A program made the translations under genes and the position numbers. Positions 12,440-20,500 of a stretch of DNA of 42,027 bases are shown here, piece after piece (the first letter of the stretch is position 1; each line of letters starts with the position of its first letter). Origin of the DNA: Planctomycetota bacterium (lineage in GTDB: Bacteria; Planctomycetota; Planctomycetia; Planctomycetales; Planctomycetaceae); contig JAQCEJ010000043.1 in NCBI GenBank assembly GCA_027618475.1, forward strand, positions 1 through 42,027, in the 5' to 3' direction. Below the pieces are notes generated by a model. The model was given only the letters and a program-made list of their open reading frames with translations, made no database searches and had not been told where the DNA came from.

Positions 12440-12879
12440 CAGCGACCTCTCAGAGATTCTGCGGTGAATTTCGTCGGTAACATGCGTCGCAAAACGCCAT
12501 TTTCCTGAATGCAGCACAACGATTCCATTCTAATCGTCACCTCGGAGATGGCAACCTCGATTGGGAAGTGACACATTGCCAAATTCAATACCGACTCACG
12601 AAAACAAAGCGATTTCGACCGTTGTGACGGCGGTGATTTTCGGAGGCGGTATCGAAAACACCGCCTGTGGCGGTTTGCGGCACATTAGAATCACGGTACA
12701 CTGAAGGAGAAATAAGCGGCGATAGAAGGAAAGCATCTCTGTCAAGGCGTCGCTGGTTCTCCTCAATGACAGCGATGTCGCGCCGACATGTCGTCCCGTG
12801 TTCAGCCTGAGTTTAAGTCGAATTATTGTGACATTAATAATATGAATTCCTCCCGGTGAGGAATTGGGAGACTAATCTT
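12440..12879. promoter_or_regulatory. Divergent intergenic region, no gene seen
   Basis: These 440 bases separate two divergent genes and should hold both promoters. I find no convincing protein frame. One small structure stands out: GGCGGT at 12645-12650, ACCGCC at 12660-12665 and GGCGGT at 12669-12674. The middle element can pair with either neighbour but not both, giving two mutually exclusive six-base stems. No run of T follows, so it is not a standard terminator or attenuator. The sulfatase ribosome site GGGAG at 12866-12870 lies nine bases before ATG 12880. Confidence 0.4.
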
Positions 12880-14766
12880 ATGACCGGAAAGCCGGTCGAC
12901 GAGTGCCTTTTAATGGCGATGCAATCTGTGGCTCCACTGAGTCGAAACCGGTGTATGCGCAGCTGCGCATTTTCTTCAGTACATTCGTGCAAATCTCATC
13001 AAGGGACGATTTGCTTACGGCGAGTGGCAGTCATCCTCTCTGTGATGGCTGCGATTTTTTTCCTTTCGGACGACCGACAAGACGTCGCCGCTCAGGACCA
13101 GGATTCGGTGGAAACCGTTCCTGCCCAAGATCAGAATCAACCCCCGCCCCCTTCACGGAAACCGAACCTGATTTTTATTCTCGCAGATGATCTTGGTTAT
13201 GGTGATTTAGGATGCTACGGCCAAAAGACCATTCTCACTCCGAATCTCGACAAGATGGCGGAATCGGGAATGCGGTTTACCGATCATTACGCCGGGTGTA
13301 CCGTCTGTGCCCCCTCGCGATGTACATTGCTTACCGGAATGCACACCGGCCACACGCTCGTTCGCGGGAATTCGGGAGCGCTGCTTGATCCGCAGGACAT
13401 CACTCTCGGCAAGGTGATGAAAGCGGCGGGCTATCGAACGGCGGTATTCGGCAAGTGGGGCGCGGGTGACAATCCTCCGCCGGGTCATCCGGAGTTATGC
13501 GGTTTTGAAGATTTTTATGGATATCTCGACAATGGTCACGCTCATAATCATTTTCCCGACTTTCTCTGGAAGAATTCGACTCAGTCTCCCATTCGTGGAA
13601 ACGTCGTCAAATCCATTGGTCGTGGCGGTGTCGCGATCAAGAAGACGCAATATTCACACGATTTGTTGACCGCAGAGGCGTTGAGTTACATCGAAAAAAA
13701 TCAATCTACTCCCTTCTTTCTATATCTTTCTTACATCATTCCACACGCAAATAACGAAGCGGGAATTGAAGGAATGGAAGTCCCCGACGACATGCCCTAC
13801 TCCGATAAACCCTGGCCGCAACCACAAAAAAACCACGCGGCGATGATTACCCGCCTGGATCGTAGCATCGGCGAAATACTGGCCGTGCTGAAAAAACTGG
13901 AACTTGACGACGATACGCTGGTCCTGTTTTCCAGCGATAACGGTCCGCATAAGGAAGGGGGTGCTGATCCCGCCTTCTTTCAGAGTTCCGGTCATTTTCG
14001 TGGATATAAACGCGACATGTATGAAGGTGGTATCCGGGTTCCGTTGATCGCACAGTGGACCGGGAAAGTCGCCGAGAACACGACAACCAACCACGTTTGT
14101 GCTTTGTGGGATCTGGTCCCGACTGCCTGTTCGCTGGCAGGAGTGGCCCCACCGGAAGGAATCGACGGTATCTCATACATGCCGACACTGCTGGGACAAC
14201 ACGAACAGCAGAAAGAGCACGAATATCTCTACTGGGAATTTCACGAAGGAGGGTCGCAGCAAGCGATTCGTTCGGGGAAGTGGAAGCTGATTCGTACCAT
14301 CGGTGGACCGGTCGAGTTATACGATCTCGAAGCCGATCCATCCGAACAAACAGACCTGTCGCAGCAGAAGCCCGACGTGGTCGAAAAACTGCTGGGGTCA
14401 GTCAACGCCGCACGGAGCGAATCAACGATTTATCCGCTTAAACCAAAGGTGCCGAAACCGAACGACCGTGTCGAAGAATCGCAGCGGGAAATCAGACGTC
14501 GAAATCGGTTACGTATTCGCCGCACGGGAAAGATTCGTCGGATGGATTCGTCGAATATCTGCCGTGGAGGACACGATCGCACCTACGTGATGAGAAATCT
14601 GAATCTCTCGACGGATTTCAGACGTTCAGAATCGAATTTCTGTCGTGATTTTTCAGAGATGATGGACGATAGGGGGCCAATGGATCGTTCATTGAATTCC
14701 ACAGGCGACGTAACATTCGATTGTTCGATCCGATATCGCACTCTCTGTTGCGTTGCGGCCCGATAG
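12880..14766 (+). CDS. Formylglycine-dependent sulfatase with anomalous C-terminal tail
   Basis: This 628-residue protein belongs to the type I sulfatases. The modification motif CAPSR has its Cys at residue 143, which would become formylglycine. Metal-binding residues are seen in ILADDLGYGDLGCYG and in FSSDNGPH. The N-terminus has about 48 polar and basic residues before a hydrophobic segment (VAVILSVMAAIFFL), so it is a long-leader signal peptide or signal anchor. ATG 12880 is chosen because GGGAG lies nine bases upstream; GTG 12856 is less likely. The family fold appears to end near LKPKVPK, about residue 535. The remaining 90 or so residues are Arg-, Ser- and Cys-rich and look unlike a folded domain. 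A second sulfatase starts 55 bases later. The substrate is unknown, and no formylglycine-generating enzyme is in the window. Confidence 0.9.
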   Translation: MTGKPVDECLLMAMQSVAPLSRNRCMRSCAFSSVHSCKSHQGTICLRRVAVILSVMAAIFFLSDDRQDVAAQDQDSVETVPAQDQNQPPPPSRKPNLIFILADDLGYGDLGCYGQKTILTPNLDKMAESGMRFTDHYAGCTVCAPSRCTLLTGMHTGHTLVRGNSGALLDPQDITLGKVMKAAGYRTAVFGKWGAGDNPPPGHPELCGFEDFYGYLDNGHAHNHFPDFLWKNSTQSPIRGNVVKSIGRGGVAIKKTQYSHDLLTAEALSYIEKNQSTPFFLYLSYIIPHANNEAGIEGMEVPDDMPYSDKPWPQPQKNHAAMITRLDRSIGEILAVLKKLELDDDTLVLFSSDNGPHKEGGADPAFFQSSGHFRGYKRDMYEGGIRVPLIAQWTGKVAENTTTNHVCALWDLVPTACSLAGVAPPEGIDGISYMPTLLGQHEQQKEHEYLYWEFHEGGSQQAIRSGKWKLIRTIGGPVELYDLEADPSEQTDLSQQKPDVVEKLLGSVNAARSESTIYPLKPKVPKPNDRVEESQREIRRRNRLRIRRTGKIRRMDSSNICRGGHDRTYVMRNLNLSTDFRRSESNFCRDFSEMMDDRGPMDRSLNSTGDVTFDCSIRYRTLCCVAAR

Positions 14767-14821
14767 TCGTCCGCTTTGCGCAGGCGTTACCGCTTGCTCC
14801 CCTATAGGCGGAAATCCAACA

Positions 14822-16252
14822 ATGAAGCCCTGTTCTAGTCGTGGAAGAGTGCATCGCATCCATTGCAATGTCCGCATTATATTGTTCGTAGCGTTGATGT
14901 TCGTCTGGTGCGTCGTTGCGAACAAACCGGTATGTGCCGACGAAATCAGCAATCGTCCGAATATCGTCATCATACTCTGCGATGATTTGGGATACGGCGA
15001 TCTGGGTTGCTACGGAAATCCCGAAATCAAGACACCACATCTCGATGATCTGGCAAAACAAGGGTTACTGTGCACCTCGTTTTATGCCGCGTCTCCCGTC
15101 TGCTCGCCATCGCGCGCCGGTTTGTTGACGGGAAAGACACCGAACCGGTTGGGCATTGTCGACTGGATACCCGAGGGTAGCCCGATGCATCTCCACAAAG
15201 GAGAAAGAACGGTCGGTTCAATGCTCTCATCGGTCGACTACGATACGTGTCACGTCGGAAAATGGCATTGCAACGGGCATTTTAATTCTCCCGAGCAACC
15301 ACAGCCCGACGAACACGGATTCAAGCATTGGTTTTCCACGCAAAACAATTCTTTGCCGACACATCTCAATCCGCTGAACTTCGTCCGTAATGGCACAGCT
15401 GTCGGACCGCGTGAAGGCTACTCGAGCACGATTATCGTCGACGAGGCCATTGACTGGTTGAAGGGACGCCGGGCGCGAACATCGGCGACGTCAACAACAC
15501 CGTTTTTGCTGTGCGTCTGGTTTCACTCGCCGCACGAAGTGATTGCGACCTCCCCCGAATTCACAAAACGATACGCGAAAGTTATGCCCGAAAAGAAGGC
15601 CGAATACTATGGCAATGTTACGCAGATGGATCACGAAGTCGGCCGGTTGTTACAGGAACTCGATATCCAACAGTTGCGAGACTCGTCGTTTGTGTTGTTT
15701 ACGAGCGATAACGGTCCCGAAACACTCAATCGTTATGGCCCCAACTCCAGCCGATCGTATGGAACGGCAAAGCCATTGCGAGGAATGAAACTCCATATGT
15801 ACGAGGGGGGCATTCGTGTCCCAGGTATTTTTCGTTGGCCTGGAAAGATCAACGCGGGGACTGAAACCGACGTTCCACTGTGCACGCTCGATTTACTCGC
15901 GAGCTGTTGCCATCTCGCGGGGATCGATGCGAGTGCCGTTCCTGTTAACGACGGTACCGACATCGTAGCGGCCCTGTTAGAAGACGAAACGTTTCACCGA
16001 GAACAACCTCTGTATTGGCAATACGACCGAGCGATCGGCACCCCCAAAGTCGCTGTCCGCGAAGGAGCGTGGAAGCTATTGGCCGATGCAGAACTCAATC
16101 AATTTGAATTATACAATCTCGTCGAGGATCCCTCTGAGGCCAACGACGTCAGCGTTGACGAACCAGATTGTGTTCTACGACTGGCGAATTTCCTGCGAGA
16201 ACGCCATGCTGCTGTTCTGAAAGACCTGAATGCCGTCAACGAACAGCCGTGA
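14822..16252 (+). CDS. Formylglycine-dependent sulfatase
   Basis: This 476-residue secreted sulfatase has a signal peptide with the hydrophobic core IILFVALMFVWCVVA and cleavage near VCADE. Metal ligands are in IILCDDLGYGDLGCYG, the formylglycine motif CSPSR has its Cys at residue 94, and FTSDNGPE supplies the later metal-binding Asp/Asn. The C-terminal subdomain ends normally (VAVREGAWKLLADAELNQ, then FELYNLVEDPSE), giving a typical family length. ATG 14822 is preferred to TTG 14753, which would overlap the previous gene. The neighbouring sulfatase is clearly a different subfamily rather than a recent tandem copy: sequence between the motifs has little in common. An esterase-like gene follows after 219 bases, suggesting a small carbohydrate-processing cluster. 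The natural substrate cannot be read from the sequence. Confidence 0.92.
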   Translation: MKPCSSRGRVHRIHCNVRIILFVALMFVWCVVANKPVCADEISNRPNIVIILCDDLGYGDLGCYGNPEIKTPHLDDLAKQGLLCTSFYAASPVCSPSRAGLLTGKTPNRLGIVDWIPEGSPMHLHKGERTVGSMLSSVDYDTCHVGKWHCNGHFNSPEQPQPDEHGFKHWFSTQNNSLPTHLNPLNFVRNGTAVGPREGYSSTIIVDEAIDWLKGRRARTSATSTTPFLLCVWFHSPHEVIATSPEFTKRYAKVMPEKKAEYYGNVTQMDHEVGRLLQELDIQQLRDSSFVLFTSDNGPETLNRYGPNSSRSYGTAKPLRGMKLHMYEGGIRVPGIFRWPGKINAGTETDVPLCTLDLLASCCHLAGIDASAVPVNDGTDIVAALLEDETFHREQPLYWQYDRAIGTPKVAVREGAWKLLADAELNQFELYNLVEDPSEANDVSVDEPDCVLRLANFLRERHAAVLKDLNAVNEQP

Positions 16253-16471
16253 CGACGGATATCTGTTGTGTTTGCTCCAATTGTCAATCGGGGAAACTGA
16301 ATTCGAAACAAAAACCATTTGTCATCGGTCGATGTCCCGCAGTAGGATGTAATGAGACGACATTGAAAGCTAAGCATCGTACAAACTTGCGATTCGCCCC
16401 TTAAAGTACCAGAACGAGATCGTTCGCCAATTCATCGACTTGAAACACACGAACCGAAAAAAGGCCCGGTT

Positions 16472-17350
16472 ATGCATCAGATGTTGTTGCGACAAAGTCG
16501 CCAGTGGATATCGGGTCTCGCTATCGCGCTGCTCATGACCTGGAACAATCCGTCGTTGGCTCGTGAGGATTATTTCACCCCCGATGAGCTTCCCCCAAAG
16601 GAAAATTTGCATCTTTATCTGCTGATGGGCCAGGAAAACATGGTCGGCCGCGGAGTGATCTCCAAGGATGATCGAGAGCCACATCCGCGAGTTATTATGA
16701 TGAACGACAAACTCCAATGGATTCCAGCGGTCGATCCCCTGCATCGACGAAATCCAATGCGTGACGGCGTCGGCCCTGGCTTCTCCTTTGCAAAATACCT
16801 CGCCGAACAAGATGAAACTGTGACGATCGGCCTGATTCCCTGTGCCGTTGAGGGTTCTTCGCTGAAACACTGGGAAAAAGGAAACGATTTATATGTTGAG
16901 GCCTTGCTCCGTGCGAAGGAGGCCACCAAAGTCGGAACGATTAAGGGAGTGATCTGGCACCAAGGGGAATGGGATGCCAGACAGCGTGCCAAGGCGGCGA
17001 CTTATGGAATCCGTCTGGGGAATACCATTCGTGATTTCAGACGAGATCTCGGTGAAGCAAAACTACCGTTTATCGTCGGAGAGTTGGGAACGTTTGTACG
17101 ACCGAATCGTCTTCCCTTTGCAAAACTCATAAACGAGGCACTTCAAGATATCCCCCATGAGATCCCATATACCGAGTGCGTCGAGACCAAGAACCTTCAT
17201 CGACGGGATCTCGATACGTTTAATGCTGAAGGTGCGCGCGAACTCGGTGTGCGATACGCTAAGGCGATGCTCGACGCACAATCGAAGGTTCGCCAGTCGA
17301 TCGAGGATTCAGACTCGATCCAAATCAATCGCGATTTTATCGGTCGATAG
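16472..17350 (+). CDS. SASA/DUF303-type esterase homologue lacking catalytic residues
   Basis: This 292-residue protein has a signal peptide (about residues 1-30, ending SLA) and a domain of the sialate O-acetylesterase-like SGNH group. The family block usually written GQSNMxGRG is present as LMGQENMVGRG, so the nucleophile Ser is Glu55 (codon GAA). The block WHQGESD appears as WHQGEWD at 162-168. The final catalytic block DxxHF appears as DLDTF at 246-250, so the catalytic His is Thr249. The frame is otherwise intact and of normal length, with no stop or frameshift, which suggests a retained non-hydrolytic protein, perhaps a glycan-binding one. A five-base hairpin (AACCG 16452-16456, CGGTT 16467-16471) loops out the AAGG ribosome site. 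It lies downstream of two sulfatases on the same strand. Confidence 0.85.
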   Translation: MHQMLLRQSRQWISGLAIALLMTWNNPSLAREDYFTPDELPPKENLHLYLLMGQENMVGRGVISKDDREPHPRVIMMNDKLQWIPAVDPLHRRNPMRDGVGPGFSFAKYLAEQDETVTIGLIPCAVEGSSLKHWEKGNDLYVEALLRAKEATKVGTIKGVIWHQGEWDARQRAKAATYGIRLGNTIRDFRRDLGEAKLPFIVGELGTFVRPNRLPFAKLINEALQDIPHEIPYTECVETKNLHRRDLDTFNAEGARELGVRYAKAMLDAQSKVRQSIEDSDSIQINRDFIGR

Positions 17351-17736
17351 AATCCTGATGGGACACGACGAACGCGATGCCGCTTCTCGTCCTCTGCCAC
17401 CCTCTGTCTAAAACTGTCGTATCTACAAGCTCGCTATTTCATAAAATCGAAAAAAACGTGACGAGAGAAAAAACCGGCTGACATTCGAAAATTTATTCGA
17501 AATTTTGCAACTTTTTTTCAACTTTCGTTGGCGTTACATGCTTTGGGTGTGGGAAGACACGGCCGAATTCCGATGTATAATCAGGAATGGACTCATCGAG
17601 CGCGCCCGCACGTGCCAGCCGCGGCAGGAAGCCCGGTTCATATCCTCCTGGGGGGATTCATTTTCCCTATCCCAAAGGATAGCTGGAGTTACGGCTGCGC
17701 CGCGCTACGGTCGCAATCGCACAGGGAGGAAGACGA
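17351..17736 (+). promoter_or_regulatory. Intergenic leader: weak terminator-like hairpin, TATAAT box, small hairpin
   Basis: No gene is seen in these 386 bases. AAAATTT 17488-17494 and AAATTTT 17500-17506 form an AT-only stem, followed by seven T at 17512-17518, a possible weak terminator for the upstream esterase-like gene. TATAAT at 17576-17581 is a perfect -10 hexamer, but no good -35 lies at standard distance. CTATCC 17667-17672 and GGATAG 17677-17682 form a six-base stem with loop CAAA in the region between that box and the next gene. GGGAGG just before ATG 17737 is a strong ribosome site. If the box is used, the leader is about 150 bases. I could not match it to a known riboswitch class. 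Confidence 0.35.
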
Positions 17737-19557
17737 ATGGACAGTCGGCACAAATCGCTGTTTCGTTGGCATAAGAGTCGATGGTGGCCTCGCGTCGTGT
17801 TGAGTATCACCCTGGTGTCCGCAGGTGTCGAACACCGTGTCGCCCTGGGACAAGATTTCCCCGATTTTGGCATCGATACTTCGATCGATTCGGCTTCCGA
17901 TCTCTTAGACGAACCCTCCGAATTTCCCGAAGTCGACCTTCCGGAGGTTGAATCCCTCCCCAGCCCAACGCCCAACACGCCGGTCCGTTCTAAGAAGTCG
18001 ACATCAGGATCAAAACGCATTCTTCAGGGGGGCAGCCTCAATCAGATTGAACGGAAATATCAGGAATTCGAACTCAGGAATTCCGGTTCGATCGAAGGCG
18101 AACGTCTCCGTCGCGCTGCCGAGAATCCGGTCAATCGACCCGCAATTCAAGGGGCTGTTGCCGATTTTACGAACAAATCAGATTCTACTGCGTTTGTTCA
18201 GCGGGATCTAAACTCAAATGAAAAACGAAAAATTGCAGCCGCTTTACGGCAGGCTGACCAGTTAATGGCCGCGAGCGAAAGTGCTTTTCGCGAGGGACAA
18301 ACCTCTTTAAGTGCGTATTCAAAGTTTCTCGATTTGTCGGTGAAGATGAAGGCGGTCTCATCAGAAATCCTGGACAGACCCGACATCGTCTCGCATGTCC
18401 TTGACGTACAAAATGCACTGTATCGAACTGCCGGCCGTCAGTTGGCTTTGCTGGATCAGCCTGGTGCAGAACGTTGGGGAGCTGAGGTACTGCTGGCAGA
18501 AGTGCTGGCGGCCGATACGGAGGTCAAGCTCGCTGTACTTCAAAAAGACAATTCACAACTCAAGCAGGCAGAAGCTCAACGTGCCCAAGCGGCGCGCCAG
18601 TTGTTCGTACAACGCATGCGTGATTACGGCGTCGGATTGGCGACTTTGCAGGAGGTAACTCAAGCGATGCGTTATCTGTTGCCTACCTCGTCAGCTAAAA
18701 TGGCCCCACAGGAACGGGAAGCTCTGGAAAACGCCCTGTCGACATACGGACAACTCTTGCAAAGCTCAGAGGAAACAACGAATGGGTGGTTCGCAAGCAA
18801 AGCGAATATGGGAACGAACGAACTGGTATCTATTTTTATGAACGACGGACGACTGCACGATCTCGCGGGGCTCGGTCCTGATGGGACAGGTTTGGGGCCT
18901 GACGATACTTTCGCTGAGCTGAAAGATTTTGACGAACTGCAATCGCGATCTGCCTCACGGTCGACCCCCCTTGCATATGGCGAGGTCGTTTCCAATCCGT
19001 TCGACACCGCGGGGATAACAGCCGGTGTGGGACGGGTGGACCATCTCCAGGAGATCCAGGCCGAAGTGTTGATGCTGACCGCTCAAGTCGCTCAATTGCA
19101 AGGAAATAGCGACCTTGCACAAAATGCCTACGCCCAGAGCTTCGCTGCCAACGGAGAGTTGTACAAATCCAGACTGGAGTTTTATCAAAACAGTACGGCA
19201 TCGTTAGGTGACGTACTACAGGCATGGATGGCCGGTCAGAATGTACGACAACAATGGGAACAGTCGGGATTCAAACCACAGGATGAATGGACGACCAGTC
19301 AGCGTGAGTCGCTGATGCAGCTGGCCGATGATACCGCAGACCGTCACGATCCACGTGGTGCCGGCGGCGCTGAATTTCAACTGATGTCCAGTCTAGAGAC
19401 TTTTGAACAATTAAAAGATTTTCAATCCACTCTACAGCGCGAGGCTGCGCAAGCGGCAGCGAAAAGTGCTGCTCCCGTGCAGTCGGCAAACCAGCCCTTT
19501 CAACGCGTACAGACATTTGTTCCCACGGAAAACGGAGACAATAATTCTCCGAATTAA
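17737..19557 (+). CDS. Secreted helical protein of unknown function
   Basis: I do not recognise this 606-residue protein. A basic N-terminus (MDSRHKSLFRWHKSRWW) leads into a hydrophobic core (PRVVLSITLVSAG) with likely cleavage near VALGQ, so it should be exported. Residues 40-90 are acidic and Pro/Ser-rich and probably disordered. From about residue 100 to the end the sequence is Ala/Gln/Leu-rich and predicted helical. It includes a QQ/AQ-rich section around 280-300 (QLKQAEAQRAQAARQLF) reminiscent of TolC-type or TPR-like helical hairpins, but no family signature is clear. GPDGTGLGPDD near residue 385 is a short Gly/Asp duplication. The start is well supported by GGGAGG upstream. The gene stands apart from its neighbours, with its own long leader and a 184-base gap after it. 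Confidence 0.75.
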   Translation: MDSRHKSLFRWHKSRWWPRVVLSITLVSAGVEHRVALGQDFPDFGIDTSIDSASDLLDEPSEFPEVDLPEVESLPSPTPNTPVRSKKSTSGSKRILQGGSLNQIERKYQEFELRNSGSIEGERLRRAAENPVNRPAIQGAVADFTNKSDSTAFVQRDLNSNEKRKIAAALRQADQLMAASESAFREGQTSLSAYSKFLDLSVKMKAVSSEILDRPDIVSHVLDVQNALYRTAGRQLALLDQPGAERWGAEVLLAEVLAADTEVKLAVLQKDNSQLKQAEAQRAQAARQLFVQRMRDYGVGLATLQEVTQAMRYLLPTSSAKMAPQEREALENALSTYGQLLQSSEETTNGWFASKANMGTNELVSIFMNDGRLHDLAGLGPDGTGLGPDDTFAELKDFDELQSRSASRSTPLAYGEVVSNPFDTAGITAGVGRVDHLQEIQAEVLMLTAQVAQLQGNSDLAQNAYAQSFAANGELYKSRLEFYQNSTASLGDVLQAWMAGQNVRQQWEQSGFKPQDEWTTSQRESLMQLADDTADRHDPRGAGGAEFQLMSSLETFEQLKDFQSTLQREAAQAAAKSAAPVQSANQPFQRVQTFVPTENGDNNSPN

Positions 19558-19741: not shown

Positions 19742-20500
19742 GTGCGAGGGGAACGCGACCGAGTAACGCGCGCTCTCGATTTATTGGCACAGGGAATTGC
19801 GCCATATATCGAGCGAGAATTCAAGAAGATCTTTGGTGAAAACTGGGCTGCTTCGGCCCGTGAGAGTTTTCGCGAAGATCGCGGTCAATTCGTTCATACC
19901 GAAGAATTCATTCGCCGTGACGCCCATTCTCTACTGACCATCATGTGGGACCAGTGGAACCGCGTATTTCGACATCAACTCAATCAGCCGGAACGAAGTC
20001 TGGTGAGCGAACTTCGCGATTTTCGTAATCGCTGGGCACACCAGGAAATGTTCAATTTCGATGATACGTACCGCATTCTTGACAGCGTACAGCGATTGCT
20101 TGTTGCCGTCGGATCGGATGTTGCGGCGATCGTCGGCGAAGAAAAACGTGAACTGTTACGCGAAGAATTCTCGATGGAAGCCGAGGCTGCCGCACGCCGG
20201 GCAGAAGACACTCAGAAGAAATGGCGAGATGTAGCCATCTACGTGCTCTGCTGCGGCGCGACGATTTTCGCGATCTTGAACTCCGATTTCGGCAGCACCG
20301 GATGGATACTTTCGCTGTTCGTCGTGATGGCGTTTCTCTACGTCTCATATCAGCGAGTTTCCACGCCGACACGAGCTTACTTTGGTGCCCACGAATGTAC
20401 GCGCTGCGGTAAGATCATCTACAATCTGACCTGTCCCTACTGCGCGCCGTCAGCTGCCCAACCGGTCGTTCACGAACTGGAACCGATTGCCGACAGCTGA
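19742..20500 (+). CDS. Swt1-like HEPN domain protein with two membrane segments and zinc ribbon
   Basis: This 252-residue protein has three parts. Residues 1-125 resemble the Swt1-like HEPN domain (MWDQWNRVFRHQL, then SLVSELRDFRNRWAHQ). The HEPN ribonuclease motif Rx4H is intact as Arg95-NRWA-His100. Residues 130-160 are a charged helix. Two hydrophobic segments follow at about 164-181 (VAIYVLCCGATIFAILN) and 185-203 (GWILSLFVVMAFLYVSY). The C-terminus carries a zinc ribbon with Cys219, Cys222, Cys231 and Cys234. The protein is therefore probably membrane-bound with both end domains on the cytoplasmic side. The start is GTG 19742 with AAAGG five bases before it; the nearby ATG 19729 is out of frame. 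HEPN domains often act as RNases in toxin and defence contexts; whether this one cleaves RNA is inference. It ends seven bases from the convergent LamG gene. Confidence 0.82.
   Translation: MRGERDRVTRALDLLAQGIAPYIEREFKKIFGENWAASARESFREDRGQFVHTEEFIRRDAHSLLTIMWDQWNRVFRHQLNQPERSLVSELRDFRNRWAHQEMFNFDDTYRILDSVQRLLVAVGSDVAAIVGEEKRELLREEFSMEAEAAARRAEDTQKKWRDVAIYVLCCGATIFAILNSDFGSTGWILSLFVVMAFLYVSYQRVSTPTRAYFGAHECTRCGKIIYNLTCPYCAPSAAQPVVHELEPIADS

Follow-up and report, generated by a model that had tools for sequence, protein, structure and literature searches.

In SGNH enzymes, the Block I Ser acts as the nucleophile and the Block V His and Asp act as base and acid respectively, while the oxyanion hole is formed by the amides of this Ser and a Block II Gly; in SASA members, a Gln stands beside the Ser and is held by an HQGE block (these roles follow the parts of PMC9487903 that deal with them). 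The closest described systems to the protein reported here are the SASA (PF03629)/CAZy CE6 proteins At4g34215 (2APJ), CAC0529 (1ZMB), and EcNanS (3PT5), with which it shares the fold, the Gln at the nucleophile, the HQGE block, and the triad Asp. Unlike these enzymes, it has Glu, Thr, and Glu in place of the Ser, the His, and the Block II Gly respectively.

Pseudoenzymes are already known in the wider SGNH/GDSL superfamily. According to the relevant part of PMC4757993, Arabidopsis At1g54030 (ERMO3/MVP1/GOLD36) is a GDSL pseudoenzyme with a Ser to Gly change and no reported lipase activity, and dead enzymes make up three of the 116 Arabidopsis GDSL sequences, so pseudoenzymes would be uncommon yet not unheard of in this superfamily. 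Like the protein described below, At1g54030 belongs to the SGNH superfamily and has lost the nucleophile Ser while keeping overall similarity; it differs in being a plant GDSL rather than a SASA protein, in carrying another substitution, and in its link to ER morphology. Besides, CtCE2 of Clostridium thermocellum, an SGNH-type carbohydrate esterase, offers a precedent for sugar binding in an active site, as its own is described in part of PMC2661963 to bind cellulose non-catalytically with the help of inserted aromatic residues. CtCE2 differs in belonging to CE2 rather than CE6, and in retaining its Ser-His and its esterase activity. Searches of the open-licence literature listed no SASA/CE6 pseudoenzyme and no paper that deals with SASA in Planctomycetes.

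We analyzed a stretch of 42,027 nucleotides from a Planctomycetota contig (hereafter the window), in which a plus-strand gene had been read in an initial annotation as a secreted SASA-type homologue with altered catalytic residues. The gene content of the genome, with DUF1501/DUF1549 and cytochrome-HEAT genes, likewise points to a planctomycete. The features of the gene are as follows.

16472..17350, plus strand: SASA (PF03629) homologue, candidate pseudo-esterase of 292 aa (Pfam match and AlphaFold2 model)
16472..16561, plus strand: putative Sec-type signal peptide, residues 1 to ~30 (by eye: basic start, hydrophobic ISGLAIALLMTW, SLA before RED)
16634..16636, plus strand: Glu55, codon GAA, replacing the nucleophile Ser of Block I (GQSNM); Ser in 134/134 readable relatives
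16850..16852, plus strand: Glu127, codon GAG, replacing the first Gly of the Block II GG[ST] motif; Gly in 133/134, Ser in the remaining one
16958..16969, plus strand: retained HQGE, residues 163-166 (alignment; role of the Gln in the oxyanion hole from part of PMC9487903)
16970..16972, plus strand: Trp167, codon TGG, after HQGE; variable column, Trp in the window protein alone
17207..17209, plus strand: Asp246, codon GAT, retained triad Asp of the DxxH block; Asp in 132/135 relatives
17216..17218, plus strand: Thr249, codon ACG, replacing the catalytic His; His in 134/134 readable relatives

The gene starts with ATG and has an open frame with zero internal stops, and its GC3 of 0.54 lies within the range of seven other genes in the window (0.52-0.58). 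The protein scores 200.4 bits against the Pfam SASA profile over residues 46-267, above the curated cut-off of 24.8, and it matches the solved SASA proteins 2APJ (E 3.5e-25) and 1ZMB (E 4.9e-23) by sequence. Judging from its N-terminus, it is probably exported, and we propose a periplasmic or surface location. Comparison of the window with Rfam, at gathering thresholds, gave no match.

To place these substitutions, we searched 170 genomes of the same family, 392 of the phylum, and 397 of the class; the sets overlap, and the phylum and class sets are samples of larger groups. Up to the best 14 candidates per genome were scored in the family set and up to the best six in the phylum and class sets, and extra copies may thus be missed. 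The alignment took in all of the phylum and class matches listed, and the family matches of at least 84.9 bits minus three partial pieces (two of genome G039 at contig ends, and G016:C16:14034-14318). It contains 137 loci, of which 136 are distinct including the window protein, leaving 135 relatives. One of them, L206, is a stop-broken fragment lacking the motif columns, and is excluded from the counts out of 134 and from the count of private residues. Identity of the relatives to the window protein is at most 48% over most of the length, the exception being a truncated copy in genome G016 (55% over 97 residues).

Both substitutions named in the initial annotation, GQENM for GQSNM and DLDTF with Thr for the catalytic His, are present and real against these relatives and the SASA profile, and the 134/134 conservation of the Ser and His applies to the subfamily of the window protein rather than to all SASA proteins. 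That annotation counted two changed catalytic blocks, and indeed both are changed, while a third break, Glu127 in Block II, had been overlooked; Gly127 rather than Gly128 is assigned as the Block II amide donor by motif. WHQGEWD had been listed as a further departure, and the sequence is there. However, column 167 varies among the relatives (Ser in 74, Gly 32, Ala 14, Lys 5, Asn 4, Thr 3, Arg 2, and Gln 1), so HQGE-W is not a family break by itself, and Trp167 was rejected as a catalytic break.

Read against the roles given in the consulted portions of PMC9487903, the protein lacks the nucleophile Ser (E55), the Block V His (T249), and the Block II Gly (E127) of an active SASA/CE6 esterase, and the absence of such conserved catalytic motifs is what characterizes a pseudoenzyme. 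On the other hand, Gln54, HQGE (H163-E166), and Asp246 are all kept, and Gln54 and the Block III HQGE would supply the residues of the inverted oxyanion hole of SASA. In another SGNH lipase, a Gly-to-Ala change in Block II lowered activity slightly to moderately (PMC10779480, in part), so inactivity is argued here from the Ser and the His. From these residues, the family Ser-His mechanism is very likely lost in the 292-aa protein.

At the most conserved columns, the losses fall on the catalytic positions. Among the 32 columns conserved in at least 95% of sequences, the window protein keeps 29 and loses exactly S55, G127, and H249; the same three are lost when the threshold is set at 98% (17 of 20 kept) or 90% (37 of 40 kept), and at looser columns it loses eight of 56 (80%) and 15 of 80 (70%). 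By post hoc arithmetic, the chance of hitting exactly those three among 32 columns is 1 in 4,960. Relatives lose a mean of 0.62 residues at the 95% columns (median 0). In four of them (L078, L090, L199, and L203), three or four private residues fall on columns of at least 90% conservation, none of these at 55 or 249, so the window protein is not the only one to have lost three highly conserved residues. Within positions 44-270, 11 residues of the window protein are private, compared with 3.3 in the average sequence; none of the 11 is Ser or His, and five fall in the 43 active-site-loop positions (hypergeometric p 0.037, with loop borders set afterwards). Together with the kept columns, this pattern speaks for a preserved fold and an altered pocket.

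One of these relatives, L078:250-1101 (genome G060), has another unusual active site: its Block II reads CAESGS instead of CAVGGS, and His and Gln have changed places in WHQGE, giving WQHGE; its Ser and catalytic His are kept.

The predicted structure agrees with this picture. The AlphaFold2 model (24 aligned sequences; mean pLDDT 86.0, pTM 0.83) superposes on 2apj with Z 32.2 and rmsd 1.8 A over 221 residues, on 1zmb with Z 31.7 and rmsd 1.7 A over 223 residues, and on NanS 3pt5 with Z 25.9, and the top-ranked Foldseek neighbours are likewise 2apj, 1zmb, and 3pt5. The model thus has the SGNH fold of the solved SASA members. In it, E55 would sit in the turn that follows the first strand and T249 directly ahead of the last helix, which correspond to the places of the SGNH Ser and His.

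That annotation had also asked whether the Glu and Thr are conserved in a clade. No second sequence with this state was found among the 134 relatives, and the genomes searched include no other member of the genus. A degenerate pattern, GQ[DE]NMxGRG, which requires a GRG-like context and an Asp or Glu, hit 11 loci in a contig collection of 84,980 species, in which records of the own or very near genomes may be absent, and none of the 11 gave a phmmer match to the protein. In a plasmid collection, SASA relatives reached at most 39% identity among the matches listed (15 of 20 records). Elsewhere in the own genome, two further SASA loci are only distantly related to it and retain the Block I Ser (GQSYAEG and GQSNM respectively), so the 292-aa protein is not a dead duplicate of a live, near-identical paralogue, and it is the sole copy of its SASA subfamily in the genome.

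In the tree, the sister group of the window protein consists of N-terminal SASA domains from proteins of three genera (g7, g14, and g15), with five sequences and a local support of 0.937. These are large proteins of the same family (open frames of 961-1204 aa, 45-48% identity), whose SASA domains read GQSNMVGRG and keep the Ser and His, whereas the window protein is stand-alone. In the three large proteins examined (L156:11680-15264, L157:5380-8970, and L159:3886-6766), a GDSL region is present in two and weak BNR/sialidase-like matches, mostly below curated cut-offs, in all three, and they are possible multi-esterase glycan enzymes. By sequence, then, the window protein resembles an inactivated, free-standing relative of a domain otherwise found in multi-domain, probably glycan-active proteins. 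On L156, a second SASA copy (L156:1936-2349, genome G016) precedes the full-length fused one by some 9 kb; this second copy has GQSNM intact and loses its frame after ~138 codons; it is a decaying duplicate that can serve for contrast.

Whether the gene itself is decaying was assessed from branch lengths. In a midpoint-rooted tree built without the catalytic columns, the root-to-tip length of the window protein is 1.11 against a mean of 1.28, with 103 of 135 tips longer, and in an earlier tree of 91 sequences (90 relatives) 78 tips were longer while its terminal branch of 0.70 was the seventh longest. Its mean identity to the others is 0.40 versus 0.46 overall, with 26 of 135 sequences lower. 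These values describe a fairly divergent, isolated protein that does not evolve fast, and a root-to-tip length that is not raised gives no clear sign of decay. We nevertheless consider a gene on its way out, with its use lost in this lineage, its active site drifted, and the rest not yet decayed, an unlikely but serious alternative. The altered state occurs in one genome, which is all there is of its genus, on a long terminal branch; the gene context is not common to the sampled relatives; and the gene is dispensable, since 36 of 170 family genomes, some of them incomplete, lack a match at E 0.001. However, every loss at the columns of at least 95% conservation is a catalytic position, where drift would be expected to strike structural glycines and tryptophans too. 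Two of the three changes also took at least two base substitutions each, the frame is open with a plausible signal sequence, and the root-to-tip length lies under the mean. Slow decay therefore keeps a minor share of the probability.

The initial annotation further suggested that the protein is a partner of two sulfatases upstream, and here the evidence is adjacency. Both sulfatase genes lie on the same strand and show a C-x-P-S-R motif by eye, and the nearer one ends 219 bp before the SASA gene. In a simple scan, this gap has no plus-strand terminator-like site and one plus-strand promoter-like site (16319-16348); over 12500-18000, the scan gave five promoter-like sites versus 4.7 in shuffles, and 11 terminator-like sites versus 6.0 (sd 3.0). 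With 39 sulfatase matches in the genome, 30 scoring over 100 bits, adjacency by chance would be ~1%, a rough estimate that assumes about 5,000 genes. Direct downstream position on the same strand and a gap free of plus-strand terminator-like sites would suit a non-catalytic partner. However, no ORF resembling the two window sulfatases by blastp was found in the neighbourhoods of nine relatives or of six in the sister clade, a sample of 15 out of 134 in which several of the six lie on short contigs and one of the nine at a contig end. A conserved neighbourhood with such sulfatases, as expected for a partner protein, is therefore absent from the sample, the idea is left with adjacency only, and we regard it as highly unlikely. 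In four genomes of genus g10, the gene adjoins DUF1501, DUF1549, and cytochrome-HEAT type genes.

Around the SASA gene, the first sulfatase ORF (window 12856-14766) has an Arg-rich tail of ~110 residues that has no Pfam match and overlaps the start of the next ORF; no continuation of the sulfatase was evident in the other frames of this region. Downstream, window 17737-19557 encodes a 606-aa protein without a Pfam or NCBIfam match, followed by a HEPN_Swt1-domain protein (19742-20500).

Other explanations keep some chemistry in the pocket or deny the substitutions. It is rather doubtful that the pocket has been rebuilt around carboxylates (E55, E127, D246, and D248, with T249 and Trp167) as a cation-dependent sugar site or as a glycosidase- or lyase-like acid-base pair on the SGNH scaffold. 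Still less expected is that the four carboxylates form a metal site or acid/base pair making the protein a new hydrolase or lyase, which we consider quite improbable. Such retooling would fit a pocket that has acquired two carboxylates at conserved positions and kept a third, with the private D248 adjoining and the substrate-positioning Gln54/HQGE still in place; against it, nothing similar appears in the SASA section (section 8) of PMC9487903, and either carboxylate function, if true, is not mentioned there for SASA. That the protein is still an esterase with catalytic residues from elsewhere, e.g., S129 or S130 with H243, is very unlikely. H243 does lie three residues before D246, S129 and S130 are in the Block II loop, and the title of one structural neighbour, PDB 9h4u, names an unconventional "diluted triad" (no paper on such a triad was found in the open-licence literature). 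However, relatives with a normal triad share these residues (Ser or Thr at 129 in 133 of 134, Ser130 in 21, and His243 in 63), and none of the private residues is a Ser or His, which leaves a migrated triad to the shared residues. Finally, a sequencing or assembly artefact is extremely improbable. The assembly is in 218 contigs, but three codons far from one another have changed, two of them by at least two bases, in an open frame of normal GC3; GAA cannot be reached from a Ser codon in fewer than two base changes, nor ACG from a His codon in fewer than three, which makes read errors unlikely.

We therefore favor, with moderate confidence, a probably exported SASA/CE6-type pseudo-esterase that has lost catalysis and kept the fold and substrate cradle, with the old pocket probably binding. 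The pseudoenzyme part of the initial annotation is well supported, given the replaced Ser, His, and Block II Gly, the kept fold and conserved columns, and a root-to-tip length that is not raised. In this pseudo-esterase, Ser-His hydrolysis would be abolished because the nucleophile, the general base, and the Block II glycine have all been replaced, while the fold and the cradle would be preserved despite the lost chemistry. The former active site may hold a glycan or an acylated sugar without catalysis, perhaps via a bound cation in an acidic pocket, which is suggested because the pocket has gained two carboxylates and lost one His, and the private Trp167 may offer a sugar-stacking face. The protein would then bind or sequester its ligand in the periplasm or at the surface. 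Two points weigh against a binder: sulfated glycans, which would be the obvious ligand beside sulfatases, should be repelled by an acidic pocket; and in CtCE2, according to the same part of PMC2661963, the Ser-His dyad itself joins in binding, whereas this dyad is gone in the window protein.

SASA/CE6 genes are commonly labelled sialate O-acetylesterase from an overall match, as in the plasmid records. For the window protein, which matches the profile at 200 bits and has neither nucleophile nor base, this label is probably wrong. If its pocket is still used, the protein would show in compact, natural form how an esterase becomes a binder, having shed the chemistry and retained its descent, its fold, and its substrate network.
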